Origin: Treponema sp. UBA792
GTDB lineage: Bacteria; Spirochaetota; Spirochaetia; Treponematales; Treponemataceae
Direction of reading: 5' to 3'
NCBI GenBank assembly: GCA_002296965.1
Contig: DBIW01000032.1
Location: forward strand, 1 to 15,248
DNA length: 15,248 nt
Numbering within the stretch: position 1 is the first letter of the stretch; each line of letters starts with the position of its first letter. A program made the position numbers and the translations under genes. The notes beneath the pieces were generated by a model. That model was not told where the DNA came from. It worked only from the letters and a program-made list of their open reading frames with translations, and made no database searches. Positions 2,713 to 13,830 of the stretch are shown here, in pieces.

Positions 2713-4383
2713 CTAGAACCTTGCCTTGACGACATCGTAGATGCAGTCCGCGGCTTTCTCAAAACGGCGGACAAGCTCCAGATAGACAAGCTCCGAATTC
2801 ACGTCCGCGCCGTCCTCAATGCGGTGGGTCACCATCTTTCCGAGCTTGCGGCGCGTCTTGTTTATGGAATTCTCCATTGCCCGCGCCTCATCCTTTTGTT
2901 GGCCCGAAAACCCGGAAGTCATGTTCGCTGTTATGAATTCCATGAATTTTTCCACCGCGCTGGCATAATCGCCGAGCTTCGCGACGGACTTCTGCGTGAA
3001 TTTCAGCTCCTTTTTGTCGGATTTCTCAAGAAGGTGCATGATTGCGGTACACTCGTCGCTGAAAGTCTCAAGGCTGGAAATGGTCTGAAGCTGGCTGTCA
3101 ATTTTTCTGCGCTCGCTGCGCCCCGCGCTGTCCAGATGGGAAACCTTCACCAGAAACGACGAAAGTATCTCGTTCATCGAATCAAGATAATCCTCCATCT
3201 CCTTGACCTCGCCAAATTTCCCGCGCGCCTTTGTCCGGCTCTCGTCGCGCAGCGACAAGATACAGCAGCCGAGCATTTTGGAGCAGAATTCCGTCATCGT
3301 CTGAATTTCCTTGTCAACGTTCACAATGCTTACAGCCGCGGAGCCGGTAGAATAGGCGGAAATGAATGGCGGCTCGTATTTTCCGAGGCTCTTCTTCTCG
3401 TCCGGGGAGTCTTTTATTATTCTGCAAGCGACTGACGCAATCTGATCCACAAACGGAAGGAACAGAACGGTACAGCAGACATTGAACATCGTGTGGAGCA
3501 TGGCGATATGATTCGTGATGTTTGATTCCGGCGTTCCCGGCACGATAAAATCAACAAGCGCAAGAAGCGGTCTGAAGAAAATCAGCGCAATCAGAGTTCC
3601 CGTAACGTTGAACATTATATGGACAAGCGCGGCGCGTCTGGCGTTCACATTTCCGCCGAGAGACGCAAGCAGCGCGTCGATTGTAGTTCCGATGTTGCTG
3701 CCGAGAACAAGCGCCGCGGCAAATTCCCACGGAAGCGCGCCGTTGTAGCTGAGCGCAAGAATTATCGCCGTAAATGCGCTTGAGGAATGAATCAGCGCGG
3801 TCAGAAGCGTTCCGAGCAGAACTCCGGCAAGAATTCCTCCGGCGCCCCAATCCGCCACCGACGAGATGAAAGTTACGGACGACGGATCAAGTTTCAGAAT
3901 ATCGGTGAGAAGACCAAGTCCCAGGAAAAGAAGCCCGAATCCCATCAGAACCTCGCCGCTGTCGTGGTATTTCCATTTTTTCATGCAGTAGATGTAGAAA
4001 CCTATGCCGAAAAGCGGAATGGCAAACGCCGTTATGCTGAACGAGAATCCCAGCAGCGACACAATCCATGCGGTCACCGTTGTTCCGATGTTCGCGCCGA
4101 AAATGATTCCGATTGACTGCCTGAGCGTAAGAACTCCGGCGTTCACGAATGAGACAACCATCACCGTGGTCGCGCTGGAGGACTGAATTATCGAAGTGAC
4201 GAAAAGTCCCGTAAGCGTGGCCGTAAAACGGTTTCCGGAAATAAGACGTAGCAGAGGCTGGAGCTTGTCGCCCGTTCCCTTCTGAATTCCGCTGCTCAGC
4301 ATATTCATCGCAAAAAGCAGCACGGCAAGACTTCCGCCGAATTTCAGGACAACCATCATTGCGTCCGAAAGCGAGAATGTCAT
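2713..4383 (-). CDS. Na+/phosphate cotransporter with C-terminal PhoU-like domain
   Basis: The 556-residue inner-membrane protein belongs to the NptA/PNaS (SLC34-like) family, which imports inorganic phosphate with sodium. The membrane part (about 1-320) carries the two inverted-repeat signatures: QSSSATT (67-73) with GANIGTT (96-102), and HSSSAFT (199-205) with GSNIGTT (228-234). A hydrophilic helical tail (about 350-556) resembles PhoU, the phosphate-signalling partner. The ATG at 4383 is preceded by GGAGG with five-base spacing; a longer version starting at TTG 4395 would run through that site and is less likely. It lies 23 bases downstream of phoR in the same direction, so it is probably the last gene of a phoB-phoR-transporter operon. 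No pst genes or separate phoU are seen. Phosphate is the likely substrate, supported by context; phosphonate or another anion cannot be excluded. Confidence 0.9.
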   Translation of the reverse strand: MTFSLSDAMMVVLKFGGSLAVLLFAMNMLSSGIQKGTGDKLQPLLRLISGNRFTATLTGLFVTSIIQSSSATTVMVVSFVNAGVLTLRQSIGIIFGANIGTTVTAWIVSLLGFSFSITAFAIPLFGIGFYIYCMKKWKYHDSGEVLMGFGLLFLGLGLLTDILKLDPSSVTFISSVADWGAGGILAGVLLGTLLTALIHSSSAFTAIILALSYNGALPWEFAAALVLGSNIGTTIDALLASLGGNVNARRAALVHIMFNVTGTLIALIFFRPLLALVDFIVPGTPESNITNHIAMLHTMFNVCCTVLFLPFVDQIASVACRIIKDSPDEKKSLGKYEPPFISAYSTGSAAVSIVNVDKEIQTMTEFCSKMLGCCILSLRDESRTKARGKFGEVKEMEDYLDSMNEILSSFLVKVSHLDSAGRSERRKIDSQLQTISSLETFSDECTAIMHLLEKSDKKELKFTQKSVAKLGDYASAVEKFMEFITANMTSGFSGQQKDEARAMENSINKTRRKLGKMVTHRIEDGADVNSELVYLELVRRFEKAADCIYDVVKARF

Positions 4384-4406
4384 AAAAACCTCCAAGGCCT
4401 GTTATT

Positions 4407-5741
4407 TCAGCTGTTTTCCGGAAACGTCACAGAAACCGAAGTTCCCTCGTTCACCGTACTTTTTAACGTTATTTTGGCGTCGTGATATTCGGCGGCGTGC
4501 TTTACAATCGAAAGTCCAAGTCCTGTTCCGCCGATTTCCCTGGAATGGCTTTTGTCCACCCTGTAGAAACGTTCAAACACGCGGTTCTGCTCGGCTTCCG
4601 GAATTCCGATTCCGGTGTCGCTCACAGTAAGAACCGCATTCTTCTGCCCCGCCGAACGGATTTCTCTCAGCGTCACGGTGACCGAACCTCCGTTCCTGTT
4701 GTATTTGACCGCGTTGTCAAGCAGATTGAAAATCATCTCGTCAATCAGCTGCGGAACACCTTTTATGAACAGATTTCCGCCCGAAACCGCAAGCGACACG
4801 TTCTTTTTTTCCGCCGCGGATTTTACCGTGGCGCAGGCGCGCTCCGCATATTCCCGGAGATTTATTTTCTCGAACTGGAACGGAACGGATTTCTCGTCAA
4901 GTTTTGAAAGCTTGATTATGTCGTTCACAAGCACAATCAGGCGCTGCGTCTCCTTGTAGATGTCTCCGGCAAAGTCGCGCATCGTGTCAGAATCAACATG
5001 TCCGTCCTTCATAAGCTCCGCAAACCCGGAGATTGATGTGAGCGGTGTCTTCAGTTCATGCGAGACATTCGCGGAAAATTCCTGGCGCAGCGACTCGCGT
5101 TCCTTCCGCTCAAAATTCTCCTCCTCGATTCTGTCAAGCAGCGGCTGCAGCTCGGCGTAATTTTCGGAGGCGCGGGGATTGTCAAGGTCGATCTCGTTTA
5201 TCGGTTTTGTTATCTGTTTTGAGAGAATCGAAGCGGCGGCTCCGGTGACAATCAGCGCAATCACGAACATGAACAGAATCGGCTGGATAAGCCCGATCAG
5301 AAGCGCCTGAAAAGTGTGATATTTTCCGGAGACACGCAGAATGTCGCCGTTATCCATCATCAGCGCAAAATAAAGCGTCTTCTCGAACATCGTGGTGGAA
5401 TAACGGACCGAACGCCCCGAACCGTTCTTCTTTGCAAGAACAATCTCCTGCCTGTCGGAATGGTTCTCGGCGGTGGAAGCGTCCGCCTCCGAATCGAATT
5501 TTACATTTCCTTCCGGATTTATCACCGTAATACGCGTGCTTGAGACAAGGCCGTCAAGAAACGCGTCTCCCGCGGTTTTTATTCCCTGCCTGACAAGATC
5601 CGCCTCGCTCTCAAGCTCCGCGAACATCCGCTCCTCGTAATAGGAAGTAAGATTGTCCACAAGAAACAGGGCGCACAGGAAATACACAAGCGTTCCGATT
5701 ATGAACGTGTTCCTGAAAATTCTGAATGTCATGCTTTTCAT
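4407..5741 (-). CDS. phoR: PhoR-type sensor histidine kinase
   Basis: This 444-residue membrane kinase has one transmembrane helix at about 11-30, an extracytoplasmic segment of about 115 residues (31-146), a second helix at about 147-172, then a short linker helix. The dimerisation/phosphoacceptor domain carries FSANVSHELKTP with His228. The ATPase domain has the N box around LLDNAVKYN (Asn343), G1 DTGIGIP (375-381) and G2 GGTGLGL (404-410). The architecture and the H-box match PhoR/ResE-type kinases. The ATG at 5741 overlaps the phoB stop as ATGA and has GGAG eight bases upstream, so translation is probably coupled to phoB. An ATG three codons in is possible but less favoured. It precedes the Na+/phosphate transporter. 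A phosphate signal is inferred from context; the sensor segment itself does not reveal the ligand. Confidence 0.9.
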   Translation of the reverse strand: MKSMTFRIFRNTFIIGTLVYFLCALFLVDNLTSYYEERMFAELESEADLVRQGIKTAGDAFLDGLVSSTRITVINPEGNVKFDSEADASTAENHSDRQEIVLAKKNGSGRSVRYSTTMFEKTLYFALMMDNGDILRVSGKYHTFQALLIGLIQPILFMFVIALIVTGAAASILSKQITKPINEIDLDNPRASENYAELQPLLDRIEEENFERKERESLRQEFSANVSHELKTPLTSISGFAELMKDGHVDSDTMRDFAGDIYKETQRLIVLVNDIIKLSKLDEKSVPFQFEKINLREYAERACATVKSAAEKKNVSLAVSGGNLFIKGVPQLIDEMIFNLLDNAVKYNRNGGSVTVTLREIRSAGQKNAVLTVSDTGIGIPEAEQNRVFERFYRVDKSHSREIGGTGLGLSIVKHAAEYHDAKITLKSTVNEGTSVSVTFPENS

Positions 5742-6430
5742 TCGCGCGCTCCGTCCGCACGGATTGTGAATCCGACTCCGCGGACAGTCTCAATGCAGGC
5801 TCCGTCATCACCGAGTTTCTGACGCAGGTTTCTGATATGCACATCGATTGTGCGGCTTTCGGTGTTGCTGTCGTAGTCCCAGACGGAATTCATCAGCATC
5901 TCGCGGGTTATCACGCTGCCCTGTTTTTCAAGAAGCACGGCGAGCAGGTCAAATTCCTTGAGCGCGAGGAAAACGGGTTTGCCGCCTACCGTAACCGTAT
6001 GGTTGCGCCGGTTCAGGACAATCCGTCCGAAGGTAAGATTTTTTTCCTCAGGAATTTCCCGGTTCATGGCAAAGCGCCGCATAACCGCCTTGATTCTGGC
6101 GGTAAGCTCCATCATTCCGAACGGCTTTGCGATGTAATCATCGGCACCGTAATCAAGGGCAATCACCGTGTCGTACTCCGAATTCCGCGCGGTCACCATA
6201 ATCACAGGAATTTTCTGCGTCCGCGGCGAGGCGCGCAGCTTTTTTAGGACTTCGATTCCGTCCTCTTCGGGAAGCATTATGTCAAGAAGAACAAGATCCG
6301 GCAGATTCGCGTTCAAGGCATCCCAGAACAGTGACGGCCGCGGAAAACCTTCGGCATCAAGTTTCTGATTCTGCAGAGTATAGATTATGAGTTTTCGGAT
6401 ACTGTCATCATCTTCCAGAAGATAAATCAT
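5738..6430 (-). CDS. phoB: PhoB-type OmpR-family response regulator
   Basis: The 230-residue regulator has an N-terminal receiver domain with acidic residues Glu6-Asp9, phosphoacceptor Asp50 (LVLLD), Thr80 and Lys102 in AKPF. Its C-terminal winged-helix DNA-binding domain (about 130-225) contains LKEFDLLAVLLEKQG, the recognition-helix region SRTIDVHIRNLRQKLG and the end wing VRGVGFTI. It is phosphorylated by the adjacent PhoR and presumably activates phosphate-starvation genes. The ATG at 6430 is the expected family start (MIYLLEDD), yet no Shine-Dalgarno precedes it; a -10-like TAGATT ends only seven bases upstream, which suggests a leaderless message. A two-copy Pho box-like repeat lies just upstream and overlaps the region after the argA stop, which points to autoregulation. 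It could be another OmpR-type regulator, but the transporter neighbour favours PhoB. Confidence 0.9.
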   Translation of the reverse strand: MIYLLEDDDSIRKLIIYTLQNQKLDAEGFPRPSLFWDALNANLPDLVLLDIMLPEEDGIEVLKKLRASPRTQKIPVIMVTARNSEYDTVIALDYGADDYIAKPFGMMELTARIKAVMRRFAMNREIPEEKNLTFGRIVLNRRNHTVTVGGKPVFLALKEFDLLAVLLEKQGSVITREMLMNSVWDYDSNTESRTIDVHIRNLRQKLGDDGACIETVRGVGFTIRADGARE

Positions 6431-6493: not shown

Positions 6494-7849
6494 TCAGCGG
6501 AGACGGTAGACCCGTGAATTCCGGCCGGGATTCCACAGCGCGCGGCGTTCCTCCGGAAGCGATTCGATTCCGTCCGCCCTGAATCCCAACTTCTCGAACC
6601 AGTCGGCAGCCTGCGTCGTCATTATGAAGATTCCCGAAGCGTTCATCCGGTCCGCCTTATCAATCAGATATTCGGTGAGCTTGCGCCCGATTCCCAGATG
6701 GACAAAGGAATTTTCCACGGCGACAGCCGCAATCTCCGCCTGTCCGTCCGAATAAAGGTGGAGCGCGGCGCAGGCATGAATTCCTCCGTCAAGCTCGTAG
6801 ACAATGTAGTCACCGATGGAATCTGAAATCTGCATCTCCGTGCGCGGAAGAAGCTTTCCGCTTTCGACAAAAGGACGCTGAATCGCAAGAACAGAAGGAA
6901 TGTCCGTGCGCCGCATCTGCCGGATTCCGCCGTAGTCGCTCGTATAAATCATCGTTCCGGAGCCGAGATCGGAGAAAATCTCGCACGGAAGCACACCGTC
7001 AAGCCGGCCTGTGACAATATGCGCACGCGTAACTCCGTCCGCACACGCGCTGCGCGCCGTCCTGACAACAGAAAGAATTTCATCCGGAGCATTCGCGTTC
7101 AGCCTGAGGAATTCGTCCGTCTCCTCAAGATTCATCGCCGGAATATCGCCGCTTTCCGTCTGCGCGAAATTTTCGGGAACAGAATAATCCGCGGAATTTA
7201 TGGAGGAAATGTCCAACATATAAAAAAGCTTGTCCGCCTTGAGGCTTACTGCGACCTGATACGCCAGCAGAACGGAAGAAATATTGTACGGCCGCCCGAC
7301 AGAATTCCACCCGATGCACGGAAATATCGGAATAAATCCGCTGTCAAGCACGGTTCTTATAGAATCCGAGTGAATTCTGTCTATCTCTCCGGCGGTTCCA
7401 AAATCGAATCCGTCTATGATTCCCTTTGAGCGGGAGCGGACCCAGTTGCCGATTACCGCGGTGATTCCGTTCGCGGCGAGGCTTGTCATCACCACATTCG
7501 ACACGTCAAATGCCGCCATTTTTATAAGCGGCATTGCGGACTCCTCGGTGACGCGGATATTGTCACGGTAGACGCTACTTATTCCGGCGGAAAAAAGAAC
7601 CTCGTCAATACGCTTTCGCGCGCCGGGAATAATCAGAACGCGCAGCCCCGCCTCGTGAAGCAGCGCAATGTCGCGGATATGGCTTGAGAACAGAGGAGAA
7701 TCGATTGTCCGGTCATCCAGATAAATCACGACGACCGCATTTCTGAATTTTCTGAGGTAGCGGATAACGTCACGGACATTCTCCGCCTTGCGCGTCAGCG
7801 ACATTCCGTGACGCTCCGGATTTTCCAGCTGAATTTTCCGTTCCGTCAT
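6494..7849 (-). CDS. argA: N-acetylglutamate synthase (amino acid kinase + GNAT domains)
   Basis: The 451-residue protein catalyses acetyl-CoA plus glutamate to N-acetylglutamate, the first step of arginine synthesis. An N-terminal amino-acid-kinase-fold domain (about 25-295) contains VVVIYLDD, LLHEAGLRVLIIPGARKRIDE and the segment GTAGEIDRIHSDSI typical of ArgA. A C-terminal GNAT domain (about 305-451) contains the acetyl-CoA loop VHLGIGRKL and ends in WFEKLGFR then RRALWNPGRNSRVYRLR, close to the ArgA C-terminus. Length matches the E. coli enzyme (443). I chose ATG 7849 because it overlaps the upstream stop as ATGA and GGAAGAA precedes it; extending to 7873 only adds residues encoded inside the upstream gene. 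It forms a two-gene unit with the FMN-binding-domain protein. No arginine box was recognised. Other arg genes are not in the window. Confidence 0.9.
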   Translation of the reverse strand: MTERKIQLENPERHGMSLTRKAENVRDVIRYLRKFRNAVVVIYLDDRTIDSPLFSSHIRDIALLHEAGLRVLIIPGARKRIDEVLFSAGISSVYRDNIRVTEESAMPLIKMAAFDVSNVVMTSLAANGITAVIGNWVRSRSKGIIDGFDFGTAGEIDRIHSDSIRTVLDSGFIPIFPCIGWNSVGRPYNISSVLLAYQVAVSLKADKLFYMLDISSINSADYSVPENFAQTESGDIPAMNLEETDEFLRLNANAPDEILSVVRTARSACADGVTRAHIVTGRLDGVLPCEIFSDLGSGTMIYTSDYGGIRQMRRTDIPSVLAIQRPFVESGKLLPRTEMQISDSIGDYIVYELDGGIHACAALHLYSDGQAEIAAVAVENSFVHLGIGRKLTEYLIDKADRMNASGIFIMTTQAADWFEKLGFRADGIESLPEERRALWNPGRNSRVYRLR

Positions 7850-8256
7850 TTTTCTTCCGCCTCCGCTCCGCAAAGCGCGTTTCCAACCGCATTCATAAAG
7901 ACAACCGCCTCAAGCTCAGCTCCTTCCGGCGGAACAAACACCGTCCTGTTCGACTGAACCATCATGTCAAGAAGCGGCTGCGGATTCTGACCGCGCGAGC
8001 CTTCGTTTTTTACTATATTAATAGAAGAAATCCGATGGCTGCTGACCGAGACATCCAGCGTCACGCGCATATAGCTTGTTCTTGCGCTTCCTTCGTAGAT
8101 TCCGTCCTGAATTCCGTTCATGTCAACATCACGCAGCTCAAGAGAGGCGGCCTCCTTTATCTGTCTGCGCCGGCGTTCGACAAAAACCGTGCTGAAGACC
8201 AGCGCAAAGCAGACGGCAACCATGACTGTCCTGAAAATTCCTTCTTTTTTTTGCAT
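7846..8256 (-). CDS. Small membrane-anchored FMN-binding-like domain protein
   Basis: With the ATG at 8256 this is a 136-residue protein with one transmembrane helix (about 9-26), a basic stretch RRRRQ, and an extracytoplasmic FMN_bind-like domain (about 50-130) beginning DGIYEGSARTSYMRVTLDVS. That pattern matches the family opening DGxYxGxxxGY...V.V. The expected covalent flavin motif S(T)GAT near the end is not present; the aligned region reads LEAVVFMNAVGNAL, so covalent FMN attachment is doubtful. A longer version from a TTG at 8328 was rejected because it spans a consensus promoter and has no support. There is no Shine-Dalgarno; a -10-like GATAGT ends six bases before the ATG, suggesting a leaderless message. 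The stop overlaps the argA start (ATGA). The role is unknown; electron transfer or a structural role in the envelope are both open. Confidence 0.68.
   Translation of the reverse strand: MQKKEGIFRTVMVAVCFALVFSTVFVERRRRQIKEAASLELRDVDMNGIQDGIYEGSARTSYMRVTLDVSVSSHRISSINIVKNEGSRGQNPQPLLDMMVQSNRTVFVPPEGAELEAVVFMNAVGNALCGAEAEEK
8245..8252 (-). repeat. A(8) tract directly after the start codon
   Basis: On the minus strand the FMN-binding-like gene begins ATG C followed by eight A bases. Such a tract at codons 2-4 could permit slippage. A-rich start regions are also known to help translation of transcripts with weak or absent leaders. Only the tract itself is certain. Confidence 0.4.
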
Positions 8257-9317: not shown

Positions 9318-10031
9318 ATGAAAAAAATCGGAATAATCGGAGCGATGGAAGAGGAAGTCTCGATTCTGATAAACGAGATGAAGAATTCCGGAAAAGTGGC
9401 CGAAACCGGCGCGGACGGACTGGTGTTCCATAGCGGAAAAATAAACGGAACCGATGCCGTCATCGTAAAAAGCGGAATCGGCAAGGTGAATGCGGCTCTA
9501 TGCGCCCAACGGCTGATTCTCCAGTTCGGTGTGACCCACATTATAAACACCGGAATAGCCGGAGCTTTGGGCGGAGACCTGCGGATTTTTGACATGGTTG
9601 TATCGACGGATGCGGTATATCACGACATGGACGCGGTTCTGTTCGGCTACAAGCCCACGCAGATTCCCGGAATGAAGGTCAGCGAATTCAAGGCGGACGC
9701 AGAACTTGTAAAAACGGCCGAGCTTGCGTTCGCAAAGGTAAACACCGTGCCAGGCCGGAAAATTCTTGCGGGAAGAGTCGCGACCGGAGACCAGTTCATC
9801 GCCGACAGGGACAAAAAGGAGCACATAAAGGAAATCTGCGCTCCGCTCTGCGTGGAGATGGAAGGCGCGGCGATTGCCCATGCGTGCTTCCTGAACGGAA
9901 TTCCGTATGTGATTCTGCGCTGCATCTCCGACATGGCGGACGAAAGCGTAGAGGCGACATATTCATTCAACGAGGACACGGCGGCTCACGAAAGCGCGAA
10001 AATCGTTCTGGAGATGCTCAGCAGCTTTTGA
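9318..10031 (+). CDS. mtnN: 5'-methylthioadenosine/S-adenosylhomocysteine nucleosidase
   Basis: This 237-residue cytoplasmic enzyme (MTAN, Pfs) hydrolyses methylthioadenosine and S-adenosylhomocysteine to adenine plus the thioribose product. The start GIIGAMEEEV supplies the glutamate equivalent to E. coli Glu12 (here Glu13). The signature VEMEGAAIAH supplies the substrate-binding glutamate (Glu182), and SDMAD contains the catalytic aspartate (Asp205, equivalent to Asp197). Other conserved parts are SGIGKVNAA (52-60), NTGIAGAL (77-84) and ATGDQF (155-160). It starts nine bases after the membrane protein gene, with AGGA as a modest ribosome binding site. The next gene, luxS, uses the S-ribosylhomocysteine that it produces. 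The luxS promoter appears to overlap this gene's stop codon. Confidence 0.96.
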   Translation: MKKIGIIGAMEEEVSILINEMKNSGKVAETGADGLVFHSGKINGTDAVIVKSGIGKVNAALCAQRLILQFGVTHIINTGIAGALGGDLRIFDMVVSTDAVYHDMDAVLFGYKPTQIPGMKVSEFKADAELVKTAELAFAKVNTVPGRKILAGRVATGDQFIADRDKKEHIKEICAPLCVEMEGAAIAHACFLNGIPYVILRCISDMADESVEATYSFNEDTAAHESAKIVLEMLSSF

Positions 10032-10056
10032 ATTCAGCAGAAATTCATCATATATA
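10028..10056 (+). promoter_or_regulatory. Promoter for luxS overlapping the mtnN stop
   Basis: TTGAAT (10028-10033) overlaps the TGA of the nucleosidase gene; TATATA (10051-10056) follows after exactly 17 bases. Initiation near 10063 would put AAGGAGG (10065-10071) at the very 5' end of the message. This would let luxS be expressed apart from the upstream operon. Confidence 0.55.
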
Positions 10057-10082
10057 ACCAGCTAAAGGAGGCACGGCAAATT

Positions 10083-10565
10083 ATGTCCGAACACACATCA
10101 GGAAACTACAATGTAGACAGCTTCAACCTTGACCACACAAAGGTGACGGCTCCGTTTGTCAGAATCGCATCAAAAAAGACAGGTCCCAAAGGAGATGTCG
10201 TGACAAAATACGACATACGTTTTACCCAGCCGAACAAGGAATTCATGACGACCGGCGCAATCCATACGCTTGAGCACCTGATTGCGGAATATATCCGCGA
10301 CGAGATGGACGGCGTGATTGACCTTTCACCGATGGGCTGCCGCACAGGATTTTATTTTACGGTTTTTGGAGATCACGACGAGGAATATGCGGCGAATCAC
10401 CTTCTGAACGTGCTGAGAAAAGTCGCCGTCTGGGACAAACCGGTTCCTGCCGCCACCGAAAAGGAATGTGGAAACTACCGCGACCATGATCTTGAAGGAG
10501 CAAAAAAATATGCCGACGCCTGGGTAAAAGGCATAGAAACAACCGGATGGAAATGTTATAAATAG
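10083..10565 (+). CDS. luxS: S-ribosylhomocysteine lyase LuxS
   Basis: This 160-residue metalloenzyme splits S-ribosylhomocysteine into homocysteine and DPD, the precursor of autoinducer-2. The metal site is intact: His61 and His65 in HTLEH and Cys129 in ECGNYRDH. Glu64 and the catalytic Cys86 in MGCRTGFY are also present. The start at 10083 follows AAGGAGG with spacing of about 11 bases. It acts directly after the upstream nucleosidase. The arrangement is comparable with the pfs-metK-luxS cluster of Borrelia, but metK is absent here. Whether AI-2 is used as a signal cannot be told from this window. Confidence 0.97.
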   Translation: MSEHTSGNYNVDSFNLDHTKVTAPFVRIASKKTGPKGDVVTKYDIRFTQPNKEFMTTGAIHTLEHLIAEYIRDEMDGVIDLSPMGCRTGFYFTVFGDHDEEYAANHLLNVLRKVAVWDKPVPAATEKECGNYRDHDLEGAKKYADAWVKGIETTGWKCYK

Positions 10566-10587
10566 TCCTGAAAATCATCTTAAAAGT

Positions 10588-10593
10588 TATAAT
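10588..10593 (+). promoter_or_regulatory. Perfect -10 hexamer upstream of the DUF1538 gene
   Basis: TATAAT lies 20 bases before the proposed TTG start at 10614, in the 48-base gap after luxS. No convincing -35 is present at 16-18 bases. Initiation would fall near 10600, so the transcript would begin at about ATGGAG and have a leader of about 13 bases. Confidence 0.45.
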
Positions 10594-10613
10594 TTATTCT
10601 ATGGAGTTTGCAA

Positions 10614-12152
10614 TTGAACATCCTGAACAAATTCAAGGAAACAGCGGTCTCCGTAATTCCCATAATGGTGATAGTTCTTGCTCTGGGAATTGCGGTTCAT
10701 CTTGACGGGCTGCTTCTTGTCCGCTTTGTCGTGGGCGGAATTCTGCTGATTGTCGGACTGACAATATTTCTGCTTGGCGTTGACCTGGGAATCCAGCCGA
10801 TGGGGGAACGGTGCGGAGCCGCGCTCACAAAAAAAAGAAGCCTTCCCCTTCTTATGGCGGCAGCATTCCTGATTGGATTTCTTGTGACGGTCGCAGAACC
10901 GGACATCCAGGTTTTCGGCGATCAGGTTAAAGGCGTTTTTCCGTATCTGCACAAAATGGCATTTGTGTTCATAATCGGAGCCGGAGTCGGTCTTTTCCTG
11001 ATGACCGGCCTTCTCCGCACGGTGACACATTTCTCTCTTAAAATCGCGCTTCTCATCTCGTATATATTGGTGTTCACAGTGGCGATGTTCGCCCCGAATG
11101 AATTCATCGGAATCGCGTTTGATTCGGGCGGCGCCACGACAGGACCGATGACGGTTCCGTTCATCCTTGCGCTCGGTCTCGGCGTCTCGTCGGTCCGTTC
11201 AGGAGACAAGGACAGCTTCGGGCTCACGGGAGTCACATCTGTAGGCCCGGTGCTGGCGGTAATCGTGTACTCACTGATTCTTAAACATTCCGGCGCGATG
11301 ACGGACGTTTCTGCGGCAGCCGAAACCGCTCTTGCCGCGGAAAACACAATAAAAGGCGGATTCCTCGCCCAGGTGATGGAACCTTTCGCGCTGAAATTTC
11401 CGGCCACGGCAAAGGAGGCATCGCTTTCTATACTTCCGATTCTATTCCTTTTTGCGGTTTTCCAGATTTTCCTGCTGAAAATGTCACGCCGCCAGGTGTC
11501 GAGAATGTTGATAGGTTTTGCGTACAGCTTTATCGGACTTTCCGTTTTCCTCACCGGAGTGAACGGCGGATTCATGCAGGCGGGACAGGCGCTCGGAATA
11601 GAACTCGGAACAAGAGCCTTCCAGCATGGCGGCGGATGGTTCGCCCTTCTGATAATCACCGGCCTTATAATCGGAGCTATAATTGTCTGCGCGGAACCGG
11701 CGGTCTGGGTTCTTTCGGAACAGGTCGAATCGGTCTCCGGAGGAACAATTCCACGCAGAACGCTTCTAATATTTCTTGCGGCTGGAGCTTCGGTGGCAAT
11801 CGGACTTGCGCTTTGGCGCGCGGTCTCCGGATTCAACCTGAAAATAATCCTCATTCCCGGATACATTCTTGCTCTGGCCCTTATGATATTCACGCCGCAT
11901 ATTTTTACGGGAATCGCGTTCGACTCAGGCGGAGTCGCGACAGGACCTTTGACATCAACATTCGTGCTCTCGTTCACGCTCGGCGCGACATCCGGAGGAA
12001 CAGGAAATTCCGACCCGTTCGGAGTAATCGCGCTTGTGGCGATGATGCCGCTGATTACAATTCAGGTTATGGGAATCATATTCAGGAAAAAACAGCAGAA
12101 GCAGGCAGGACTTGAGTCCAGGCCGAACAAAGAAGAAGGAGCCGGAAAATGA
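10614..12152 (+). CDS. Tandemly duplicated DUF1538 integral membrane protein
   Basis: This is a polytopic inner-membrane protein of about 512 residues made of two DUF1538 units. The halves share motifs at a constant offset of about 266 residues: AEPDIQV (94-100) with AEPAVWV (360-366), and GIAFDSGGATTGP (167-179) with GIAFDSGGVATGP (434-446). Each half has roughly six hydrophobic helices, recalling a pseudo-symmetric transporter or channel. The family's substrate is unknown to me. No ATG fits this frame near the conserved beginning. TTG 10614 is chosen because GGAG (10603-10606) lies seven bases upstream; TTG 10608 is too close to it. An ATG at 10601 is out of frame. The stop overlaps the P-II-like gene as ATGA, which makes a functional P-II/membrane partnership likely by analogy with AmtB-GlnK. 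Confidence 0.85.
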   Translation: MNILNKFKETAVSVIPIMVIVLALGIAVHLDGLLLVRFVVGGILLIVGLTIFLLGVDLGIQPMGERCGAALTKKRSLPLLMAAAFLIGFLVTVAEPDIQVFGDQVKGVFPYLHKMAFVFIIGAGVGLFLMTGLLRTVTHFSLKIALLISYILVFTVAMFAPNEFIGIAFDSGGATTGPMTVPFILALGLGVSSVRSGDKDSFGLTGVTSVGPVLAVIVYSLILKHSGAMTDVSAAAETALAAENTIKGGFLAQVMEPFALKFPATAKEASLSILPILFLFAVFQIFLLKMSRRQVSRMLIGFAYSFIGLSVFLTGVNGGFMQAGQALGIELGTRAFQHGGGWFALLIITGLIIGAIIVCAEPAVWVLSEQVESVSGGTIPRRTLLIFLAAGASVAIGLALWRAVSGFNLKIILIPGYILALALMIFTPHIFTGIAFDSGGVATGPLTSTFVLSFTLGATSGGTGNSDPFGVIALVAMMPLITIQVMGIIFRKKQQKQAGLESRPNKEEGAGK

Positions 12153-12814
12153 AATACAGACTTTTTATCAGCATTGTTCCGCACAACTCCGGTGAGCTAG
12201 TCGCCGGAGCAGCCTCATCTGCAGGAGCACGCGGCGGAACCGTGGTGATGGGACGGGGAACCGCATCCAACGGCATAATCCAGTTTCTGGGACTTGGCGA
12301 AAAGGCAAAGGACATTGTTTTTATTGTTGTTGACGACTCAACGGCAGACGATGTCTGGGTGGCCATCAGATCCGCCGCAATGCACAAAGGCGAACATTTC
12401 GGAATTCTATTTTCAATCGATGTGGACAGTTTTATCAGACAGGGACAGATTTCAGCCTCTGACAATCAAGGAGAAAAAGACATGGACAGCACATACAGAA
12501 TGATTACAGCCATCGTGAACAAAGGCTACGCCGAGGATGCAATGGCGGCCGCAAGAAAAGCCGGCGCGCACGGAGGAACAATAATTTCCGCACGCGGAAC
12601 GGCAAAGGCCGGAGACGAGAAATTCTTCGGAGTAGAAATTGTTCCCGAAAAGGATATGCTTGTTGTCCTTGTAGAAAAAGACAAAGCCGACGGAATCATC
12701 GATGCAATCAGGACGCTTCCTTGCCTCGAAAAACCGGGCAGCGGAATCGTGTTCTGCTCGGAAGTCCAGAATTTCACGTCAATCGGCGGACGCTTCGACA
12801 AAACAGAATCGTGA
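12149..12814 (+). CDS. Two-domain P-II family protein (tandem GlnB-like fusion)
   Basis: The 221-residue protein contains two P-II-like ferredoxin-fold domains, 1-100 and 112-215. Aligned motifs are ARGGTVVMGRGTAS (28-41) and AHGGTIISARGTAK (140-153), each followed by a short T-loop and the LGL/FGV and I(V/L)V strand, about 113 residues apart. The uridylylated tyrosine of canonical GlnB T-loops is not evident, so control, if any, is likely by ligand rather than by GlnD. The C-terminal domain begins at Met112, preceded by AAGGAG at eight bases, so it may also be made separately. The start overlaps the DUF1538 stop (ATGA), with AAGGAG upstream, and the end overlaps birA (GTGA). It probably binds nucleotides and regulates the membrane partner; this is inferred from family and context. 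Confidence 0.85.
   Translation: MKYRLFISIVPHNSGELVAGAASSAGARGGTVVMGRGTASNGIIQFLGLGEKAKDIVFIVVDDSTADDVWVAIRSAAMHKGEHFGILFSIDVDSFIRQGQISASDNQGEKDMDSTYRMITAIVNKGYAEDAMAAARKAGAHGGTIISARGTAKAGDEKFFGVEIVPEKDMLVVLVEKDKADGIIDAIRTLPCLEKPGSGIVFCSEVQNFTSIGGRFDKTES
12468..12484 (+). promoter_or_regulatory. Internal ribosome binding site and ATG between the two P-II domains
   Basis: AAGGAG (12468-12473) stands eight bases before an in-frame ATG (12482) exactly at the start of the second P-II domain (MDSTYRMITAIV). Translation from here would give a 110-residue single-domain P-II, the usual length for the family. It could be a working internal start or a relic of two separate genes. Confidence 0.5.
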
Positions 12815-13830
12815 ACACAAAACAGACTGTTCTTGAGGAGCTTTACAGGGCCGCCGAGACAGGAGGCTTTGTCTCCGGGCAGGAATTTGCGGAAAAAGCG
12901 GGACTCTCGCGCGCCGCCGTATGGAAAGCGGTGACCGCCCTCAGAGATGAAGGCGTAAAAATCGAAGCCGTACCGAAGCTCGGATACAGGCTCACCGAAA
13001 GCGGAAGTTTTCTTGACGCGGAGATAATCCGCTCAAGGCTTCCCGCCGATTCCGGCATAAAAATCAGGCTTCTTGACATAACCGACTCAACGAATTCCGA
13101 AGCCGACAGAATCATCTCAGCGGCGAAGGAAATCAGTTCCGTCCACAAGACTGCCGTAATCGCAGGTGAACAGACCGCCGGACGAGGCCGGCTCGGACGG
13201 AAATTCTATTCTCCGGCGGCGACAGGACTATACATCTCGCTGATTTATGTTCCCGGCGGCTCAATCCAAAATCCGGCGGTTCTGACCGCGACCGCAGCCG
13301 TAGCTGTATGCCGCGCGATAAGGAAAATCTACGGCGCAGAGTGCGGAATCAAATGGGTCAACGACATCTACCTTGACGGAAAAAAAATCTGCGGAATTCT
13401 GACCGAAGGCCGGATGAATTTCGAGACAGGCAGAATAGAAGCCGCGATTGTCGGAATAGGCGTGAACATAACAACCGACTGTCAGAATTTTCCGGATGGA
13501 CTGGGAGAAAAGGCCGGCTCGATTCTGGGAGAAAACGGAGATGCAAGACGCAATCTGCTGGCCGCAGAAATAATCCGCGAGGTGTTCGGAATATATGATT
13601 CGGCGGAGAACGGTTTTCAGGACGCAATAAGGGAATACAGGGAAAAATCCGTTCTAAAAGGAAAACGCATAGAAATTTCGCCTGTAGTCGGCACATCAAA
13701 GGAAAACTACCCGGCGACCGTCATCGGCATCACGGATGACGCGGGACTGGAAGTCAGACTTGATTCCGGAGAGACACGCGTCCTGCACAGCGGAGAAATT
13801 TCCCTTCACGGCACAAATCTTTTCAGATAA
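12811..13830 (+). CDS. birA: Bifunctional biotin-protein ligase / biotin operon repressor
   Basis: The 339-residue protein activates biotin to biotinyl-AMP and transfers it to carrier proteins such as the acetyl-CoA carboxylase subunit. An N-terminal winged helix (about 1-62; SGQEFAEKAGLSRAAVWKAV, then PKLGYRL) indicates a DNA-binding repressor form. The catalytic domain has the adenylate loop GRGRLG (124-129), KWVNDIYLDGKKICGILTE (181-199) and VGIGVNI (214-220). A small SH3-like C-terminal domain (about 290-335) closes it. I chose GTG 12811 because it overlaps the P-II stop (GTGA) and gives a normal N-terminus; the longer frame from 12721 lies within the P-II gene. No good Shine-Dalgarno is seen, so coupled translation is likely. 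Biotin genes are absent from the window, so repressor targets are not visible here. Confidence 0.93.
   Translation: MNTKQTVLEELYRAAETGGFVSGQEFAEKAGLSRAAVWKAVTALRDEGVKIEAVPKLGYRLTESGSFLDAEIIRSRLPADSGIKIRLLDITDSTNSEADRIISAAKEISSVHKTAVIAGEQTAGRGRLGRKFYSPAATGLYISLIYVPGGSIQNPAVLTATAAVAVCRAIRKIYGAECGIKWVNDIYLDGKKICGILTEGRMNFETGRIEAAIVGIGVNITTDCQNFPDGLGEKAGSILGENGDARRNLLAAEIIREVFGIYDSAENGFQDAIREYREKSVLKGKRIEISPVVGTSKENYPATVIGITDDAGLEVRLDSGETRVLHSGEISLHGTNLFR

Follow-up and report, generated by a model that had tools for sequence, protein, structure and literature searches.

Organization of the locus

The window, that is, the whole stretch of 15,248 nucleotides analysed here, belongs to contig C25 of a 1.9-Mb draft genome (G000). 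Two genes lie side by side on its forward strand; the first encodes a membrane protein with two DUF1538 units, and the second encodes a tandem P-II regulator. The features of the pair are as follows:

10608..12152, +: UmpA-UmpB-like fused membrane protein with two DUF1538 units (profiles and trees; likely start at 10614)
10665..11279, +: DUF1538 unit 1, clustering with split UmpA (202.9 bits; trees)
10896..10901, +: E97-P98 codons of unit 1, invariant in alignment A1, at a predicted helix break (model)
11121..11123, +: D172 codon in the FDSGGATTGP motif of unit 1, invariant in A1, close to a predicted helix break
11439..12080, +: DUF1538 unit 2, clustering with split UmpB (200.1 bits; trees)
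11694..11699, +: E363-P364 codons, counterpart of E97-P98 in unit 2, invariant in alignments A1 and A2
11922..11924, +: D439 codon in the FDSGGVATGP motif of unit 2, invariant in A1 and A2
12149..12152, +: ATGA, the 4-nt overlap of the membrane and P-II genes (sequence)
12149..12814, +: tandem P-II regulator of 221 aa (two PF00543 stretches; model pLDDT 76.8, pTM 0.72)
12149..12451, +: P-II domain 1 (residues 1-101), of a class in which the G-x-G B-loop is mostly lost
12485..12790, +: P-II domain 2 (residues 113-214), of a class in which the G-x-G B-loop is mostly kept

The longest reading of the membrane gene (ORF 10608-12152, +) starts at TTG 10608. TTG 10614 is the likelier start; a GGAG sequence, read by eye, is located 7 nt upstream of it (10603-10606). 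No RNA family reached its gathering score in the window, nor in a search at 10400-10700. Between 10000 and 13000, there is one promoter-like site (2.2 expected) and there are eight terminator-like sites (3.3 expected).

The pair is preceded by the genes for one MTAN-type phosphorylase and LuxS (9318-10565, +) and followed by the biotin ligase gene birA (12814-13830). An N-acetylglutamate synthase-like gene (6494-7873, -) is located 2.7 kb upstream of the pair; relatives of it occur in four other survey loci (L089, L091, L096 and L097), directly before DUF1538 in L089. The window also encodes a Na+/phosphate cotransporter with a C-terminal PhoU-like domain (2713-4395, -), beside a histidine kinase and a response regulator.

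The membrane protein contains two homologous DUF1538 halves

The membrane protein is the only DUF1538 protein encoded in the window genome. It matches PF07556 (DUF1538) with 390.2 bits over two stretches (cut-off 22.6), and its two halves can be aligned with each other at 30% identity over 227 residues (E 1e-31; hhalign probability 99.9). The motifs of the two halves are offset by 266-267 residues, E97-P98 corresponding to E363-P364 and D172 to D439; all of these residues are invariant across a 16-sequence alignment. The initial annotation had described two DUF1538 units with a constant offset of about 266 residues, and the profile matches, the alignment of the halves and the measured offset bear this out.

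The AlphaFold2 model of the protein is a confident one, with a pLDDT of 89.9 and a pTM of 0.88. As read from this model, each half would comprise seven segments, two of which are predicted to be interrupted, at E97-P98 and D172 in the first half and at E363-P364 and D439 in the second, all of them invariant motifs. The loops contain 0.197 Lys and Arg per residue on the inside and 0.045 on the outside, the sides being assigned under a 7+7 model with both termini inside; the loop charges are thus compatible with an inverted 7+7 arrangement of this kind. Sequence search of the PDB returned no solved relative of the membrane protein, Foldseek and VIA gave no clear structural match for the chain, and viral contigs, when scanned for DUF1538, yielded no relative.

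The tandem resembles a fused UmpA-UmpB pair

One DUF1538 pair, UmpAB of Halomonas zhaodongensis, has been measured to act as a Na+(Li+,K+)/H+ antiporter (PMC5484666). UmpA and UmpB, for each of which seven segments are predicted, assemble into a hetero-dimer and jointly catalyze pH-dependent antiport; tolerance to 0.2 M NaCl required co-expression of umpA and umpB, whereas UmpB alone helped growth somewhat below that concentration (PMC5484666). DUF1538 is also included in a table of pH-adaptation genes in a paper on growth pH (PMC13255231). The initial annotation had called the substrate of the membrane protein unknown, which overlooks this characterized member of the family.

The single-unit tree joins unit 1 to split UmpA (support 99/92) and unit 2 to split UmpB (100/98), both from Alphaproteobacteria; the same groupings were recovered in a second single-unit tree (99/90 and 100/99). 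The split units in these trees are one umpA and two umpB, all from plasmids. Owing to this grouping, the tandem is best interpreted as UmpA and UmpB fused to each other: like UmpAB, the window protein belongs to the DUF1538 family and possesses paired A- and B-type halves of seven segments. Different from UmpAB, its halves reside in one chain, a P-II gene is attached, and its scores are far below the equivalog cut-offs of NCBIfam, being 158.9 bits for UmpA (NF041627, cut-off 490) and 143.5 bits for UmpB (NF041628, cut-off 500). Therefore, we refer to the protein as UmpAB-like. By analogy with UmpAB, it may exchange Na+, Li+ or K+ for H+; the low UmpA and UmpB scores speak against this assignment, as does the small number of assayed relatives. 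To our knowledge, UmpAB is the only DUF1538 pair that has been assayed.

The regulator is a non-canonical tandem P-II protein

Few signal proteins are as widespread as those of the P-II family. The product of ORF 12149-12814 (+) matches PF00543 with 59.2 bits over two stretches (cut-off 25) and is of P-II fold. Its two halves share 35% identity over 98 residues (E 7e-12) at an offset of 113 residues; both the tandem of P-II domains about 113 residues apart and the ATGA overlap with the membrane gene had been noticed in the initial annotation and are confirmed here. Among the PDB sequence-search matches of the protein, P-II chains were returned and none was CutA; different from CutA1, the regulator is also linked to a transporter.

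We took the uridylylation site and the GDGK B-loop as the patterns of canonical GlnB/GlnK. Neither is present in the first (0/176) or second (0/178) tandem domains or in any of the other sets, whereas, among three canonical P-IIs scanned as a control, two contain the uridylylation pattern and all three contain GDGK.

Pfam does not recognize the P-II domain that is fused to the C-terminus of some DUF1538 proteins (0/3 proteins), and on the long P-II chains described below it gave 22.6 bits for L229, which is under the cut-off of 25, and no match for L219. These domains were identified as P-II by our own iterative profile and by profile-profile comparison of separately aligned sets. Compared to the second tandem domains, the fused domain reached a probability of 99.8, domains 1-3 of the triple chains reached 99.1, 99.4 and 99.1, and the two domains encoded by the gene upstream of the fusions reached 97.9 and 99.7, the members and boundaries of all sets being taken from the joint profile. 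As controls, five sets with shuffled columns were used and four comparisons were made to DUF1538 halves; all of them stayed below 2. By profile-profile comparison, with the controls near zero, the P-II domains of the layouts are related. When compared to the three canonical P-IIs alone, the two tandem domains scored 93.1 and 84.7, the three domains of the triple chains 74.8, 21.9 and 19.0, the single set (which holds one partial domain of L130) 7.7, the upstream gene 4.4 and 0.1 and the fused domain 1.1.

The second P-II match in the window genome belongs to an ammonium transporter, whose C-terminal domain it forms (L003, 1465-3231, -; contig C29 of G000), with 393.7 bits for PF00909 and 81.9 bits for PF00543.

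Linkage between DUF1538 and P-II

The closest relatives of the window in the named species collection are from Treponema (best protein identity 68%). In all 80 named loci, which are the best 80 of 246 relatives and come from Treponema or other spirochaetes, one two-domain P-II is encoded directly downstream of the DUF1538 gene. We also surveyed 392 sampled Spirochaetota genomes, 144 of which have a DUF1538 match (143 above the cut-off). The survey gave 134 distinct DUF1538 genes that are non-identical to the named 80; two at contig edges (L237 and L239) were excluded, as were identical copies and one 21.5-bit fragment with a stop (G055). P-II was tallied by domains, not by ORF. It is adjacent or fused in 128 of the 132 further assessable genes; the four exceptions come from three genomes (G281 twice, G295 and G373), each of which has a tandem P-II elsewhere.

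To measure the spacing, the P-II start was set at the first start codon encountered when reading onwards from 60 nt upstream of the DUF1538 stop codon. Among the 203 genes, named and survey, that are followed by P-II, this start lies within 20 nt of the stop codon in 183, and the overlap is exactly 4 nt in 91.

Among 72,556 plasmids, DUF1538 was detected in nine, and the Methylocystis P-II query (E 1e-3) found the same nine; with the window P-II as the query (E 1e-5), five of the nine were found. Seven of the nine plasmids were read: in the five of these that are annotated, DUF1538 adjoins a 'P-II family nitrogen regulator', and in the two that are unannotated, P-II was located by scan. In the remaining two of the nine, the match positions are adjacent. 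The plasmids that carry both include Clostridia and Alphaproteobacteria. The absence of a conserved DUF1538/P-II neighbourhood across genomes had been set beforehand as the outcome that would overturn the coupling; with 80/80 named loci, 128/132 survey genes and 9/9 plasmids, the neighbourhood is conserved across phyla, and the P-II gene is linked to its transporter gene as in P-II-regulated transporters.

Such a neighbourhood could be inherited gene order without function. In Treponema-type loci with enough flanking sequence, other neighbours are retained as well (MTAN in 62/74, luxS in 41/74 and birA in 25/77), and conserved gene order accounts for some of the linkage within these loci. However, P-II persists outside family f1, where MTAN, luxS and birA were found in none of the 91 survey loci (31 of them flanked by 2.5 kb or more on each side), and the same pair is found on plasmids of other phyla; this explanation is very improbable for the linkage as a whole.

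Gene content follows the same trend. Among 46 genomes, this P-II is present in 25 of the 26 DUF1538-positive ones and in 2 of the 20 DUF1538-negative ones; the sole positive genome without a query match, G349, has a 381-aa P-II-type chain. In two species (G091 and G291), the tandem P-II is retained at the same genomic site, beside MTAN and birA genes, and DUF1538 is gone. Together with the unlinked copies of G281, G295 and G373, these cases could mean that the P-II shares a transcript with the transporter yet has a different target, such as an enzyme or regulator of the same stress. We regard this as rather improbable, since P-II is directly fused to DUF1538 in some proteins, is linked to it in three phyla and is nearly absent from DUF1538-negative genomes.

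Layouts of the DUF1538 and P-II chains

The DUF1538 and P-II chains are combined in four layouts. In layout A, known from the plasmids of two lineages (Methylocystis rosea and Chelativorans sp., the annotated umpA of the latter being just 273 nt), split UmpA and UmpB are accompanied by one P-II domain. Layout B, one fused tandem with a two-domain P-II, is that of the window, of Treponema, of other Spirochaetota families and of Clostridia. In layout C, the tandem is accompanied by a P-II chain of 364-436 aa; it comprises 25 genes from 17 families, 21 of the genes being long tandems, and our profile recognized three P-II domains in 15, two in seven and one in three of the 25 chains. Layout D consists of natural DUF1538-DUF1538-P-II fusions. 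It was found in three survey genes, each overlapped by a P-II gene upstream, which encodes two domains in two cases; the contig ends inside the third. A search aimed at the fused P-II domain returned 19 proteins. One locus (L163) has the gene order tandem, P-II, tandem.

In the P-II tree, which has few columns and many open forks, the first tandem domains of Clostridia and Spirochaetota group together (97/91); therefore, the P-II duplication was probably shared by them. The two units of the tandems with long P-II chains cluster with each other in the DUF1538 trees (98/92 and 99/92). A separate origin of layout C is probable; when a shared DUF1538 duplication was put to the AU test, the p value was 0.0456, which is marginal and concerns a group named post hoc.

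The initial annotation had proposed that the duplication of the membrane protein is matched by that of P-II. This is right in outline, split genes being accompanied by one P-II domain (in two lineages) and tandems by two or more. The counts are not 1:1, however: 25 tandem genes go with a P-II chain of more than 300 aa, and the fusions have an upstream P-II in addition to their own domain.

A putative P-II-gated cation/proton antiporter

Taken together, these observations indicate that the UmpAB-like antiporter and its dedicated multi-domain P-II make up a real and widespread unit. Given the families, the repeats, the overlap, the linkage across phyla and the natural fusion, and by analogy with known P-II systems, we consider it fairly probable that the two genes act as one functional unit, in which the dedicated, non-canonical P-II gates a fused UmpA-UmpB-like cation/proton antiporter. 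The antiporter would consist of two inverted seven-segment halves, with the N and C termini inside and the conserved acidic residues at the helix breaks. P-II may dock on its cytoplasmic face, the side on which the fused domain of layout D is attached to the C-terminus, and may open or close it in response to a small, nucleotide-like ligand. Such docking, with locking or release of the antiporter according to the ligand, would follow by analogy with AmtB-GlnK and SbtA-SbtB, in which the T-loop of P-II reaches into the carrier from the cytoplasm (PMC8352866, PMC10710835).

Like SbtA-SbtB, a Na+/bicarbonate symporter with a PII-like lid, the window pair combines an inverted-repeat carrier with a P-II-type partner in the same operon (PMC8352866). 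Different from SbtA, the window protein has only DUF1538 among its Pfam matches; SbtB is a single-domain homotrimer (PMC8352866), whereas the window P-II is a two-domain chain. AmtB-GlnK and the Amt-P-II fusions, one of which is encoded in the window genome too, also tie P-II to a membrane transporter; however, the transporter family is unrelated, and the window P-II lacks the uridylylation and GDGK patterns.

Two single cases favour gating of a cation antiporter, namely the PF03553 neighbour of the P-II gene in G295 and the K+ transporter neighbour in G147. Against gating stand the two genomes without DUF1538 (G091 and G291), the non-adjacent copies in G281, G295 and G373 and the single-domain P-IIs of this class beside other genes.

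P-II may also gate the membrane protein and report nitrogen or carbon status, the substrate being other than Na+ or K+, for example ammonium, a small amine or bicarbonate. In favour of this, the best-known partners of P-II transport ammonium, nitrate, urea and bicarbonate (PMC10710835), the window protein is below the UmpA and UmpB cut-offs, and the measured activity comes from one pair (PMC5484666). Such a substrate is nevertheless unlikely: the acidic motifs are invariant family-wide, the A/B pairing is that of UmpAB, the canonical nitrogen-signalling motifs are absent from the P-II, and the neighbours in the two single cases are Na+/H+ antiporter and K+ transporter genes.

The antiporter family and the control of transporters by P-II are already known. 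P-II is not mentioned in the UmpAB paper (PMC5484666), nor in the main text of the open-licence PMC papers that contain DUF1538; among the open-licence PMC papers listed in our searches (titles and abstract openings), no description was found of the coupling, of the fusions or of the layouts with one, two, three and two plus one P-II domains. A further-reaching reading of the gated antiporter, which we consider less likely than not, is a new kind of P-II lid, in which hard-wired, non-canonical and possibly nucleotide-sensing chains of two, three or two plus one fused P-II domains would gate a Na+/K+-proton antiporter of two inverted halves, the P-II chains having multiplied as the transporter halves became fused. 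Should the transporter not be a trimer, this lid would contradict the stated rule that only transporters able to work as trimers come under P-II control. That a non-canonical P-II class is tied to a monovalent-cation/proton antiporter family in three phyla points to metabolism controlling Na+/K+ and pH balance directly, and chains with one, two, three or two plus one P-II domains allow a direct test of the stoichiometry of P-II control.

Other neighbours of the P-II genes

In the two genomes without DUF1538, the tandem P-II is located between MTAN and birA (L264, 4101-6287, in G291) or between MTAN plus luxS and birA (L265, 3808-6872, in G091), in the gene order of the window. In G295 (L254), the unlinked tandem P-II gene (3658-4332) is directly followed by the PF03553 Na+/H+ antiporter gene (4361-5968); the same P-II in G373 has no Na+/H+ antiporter neighbour within the stretch read.

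Single-domain P-IIs of the same class occur away from DUF1538 in G325, G357 and G359; single-domain P-II genes are located at 3696-4145 (-) in L256, 4095-4439 (+) in L257 and 4002-4325 (+) in L266. An MFS gene adjoins the one in L256 (the MFS case in G357). In G147, the K+ transporter gene (PF02705, 604.8 bits; L227, 879-2759, -) directly follows the DUF1538/P-II pair on the same strand, and a second DUF1538/P-II pair starts divergently.
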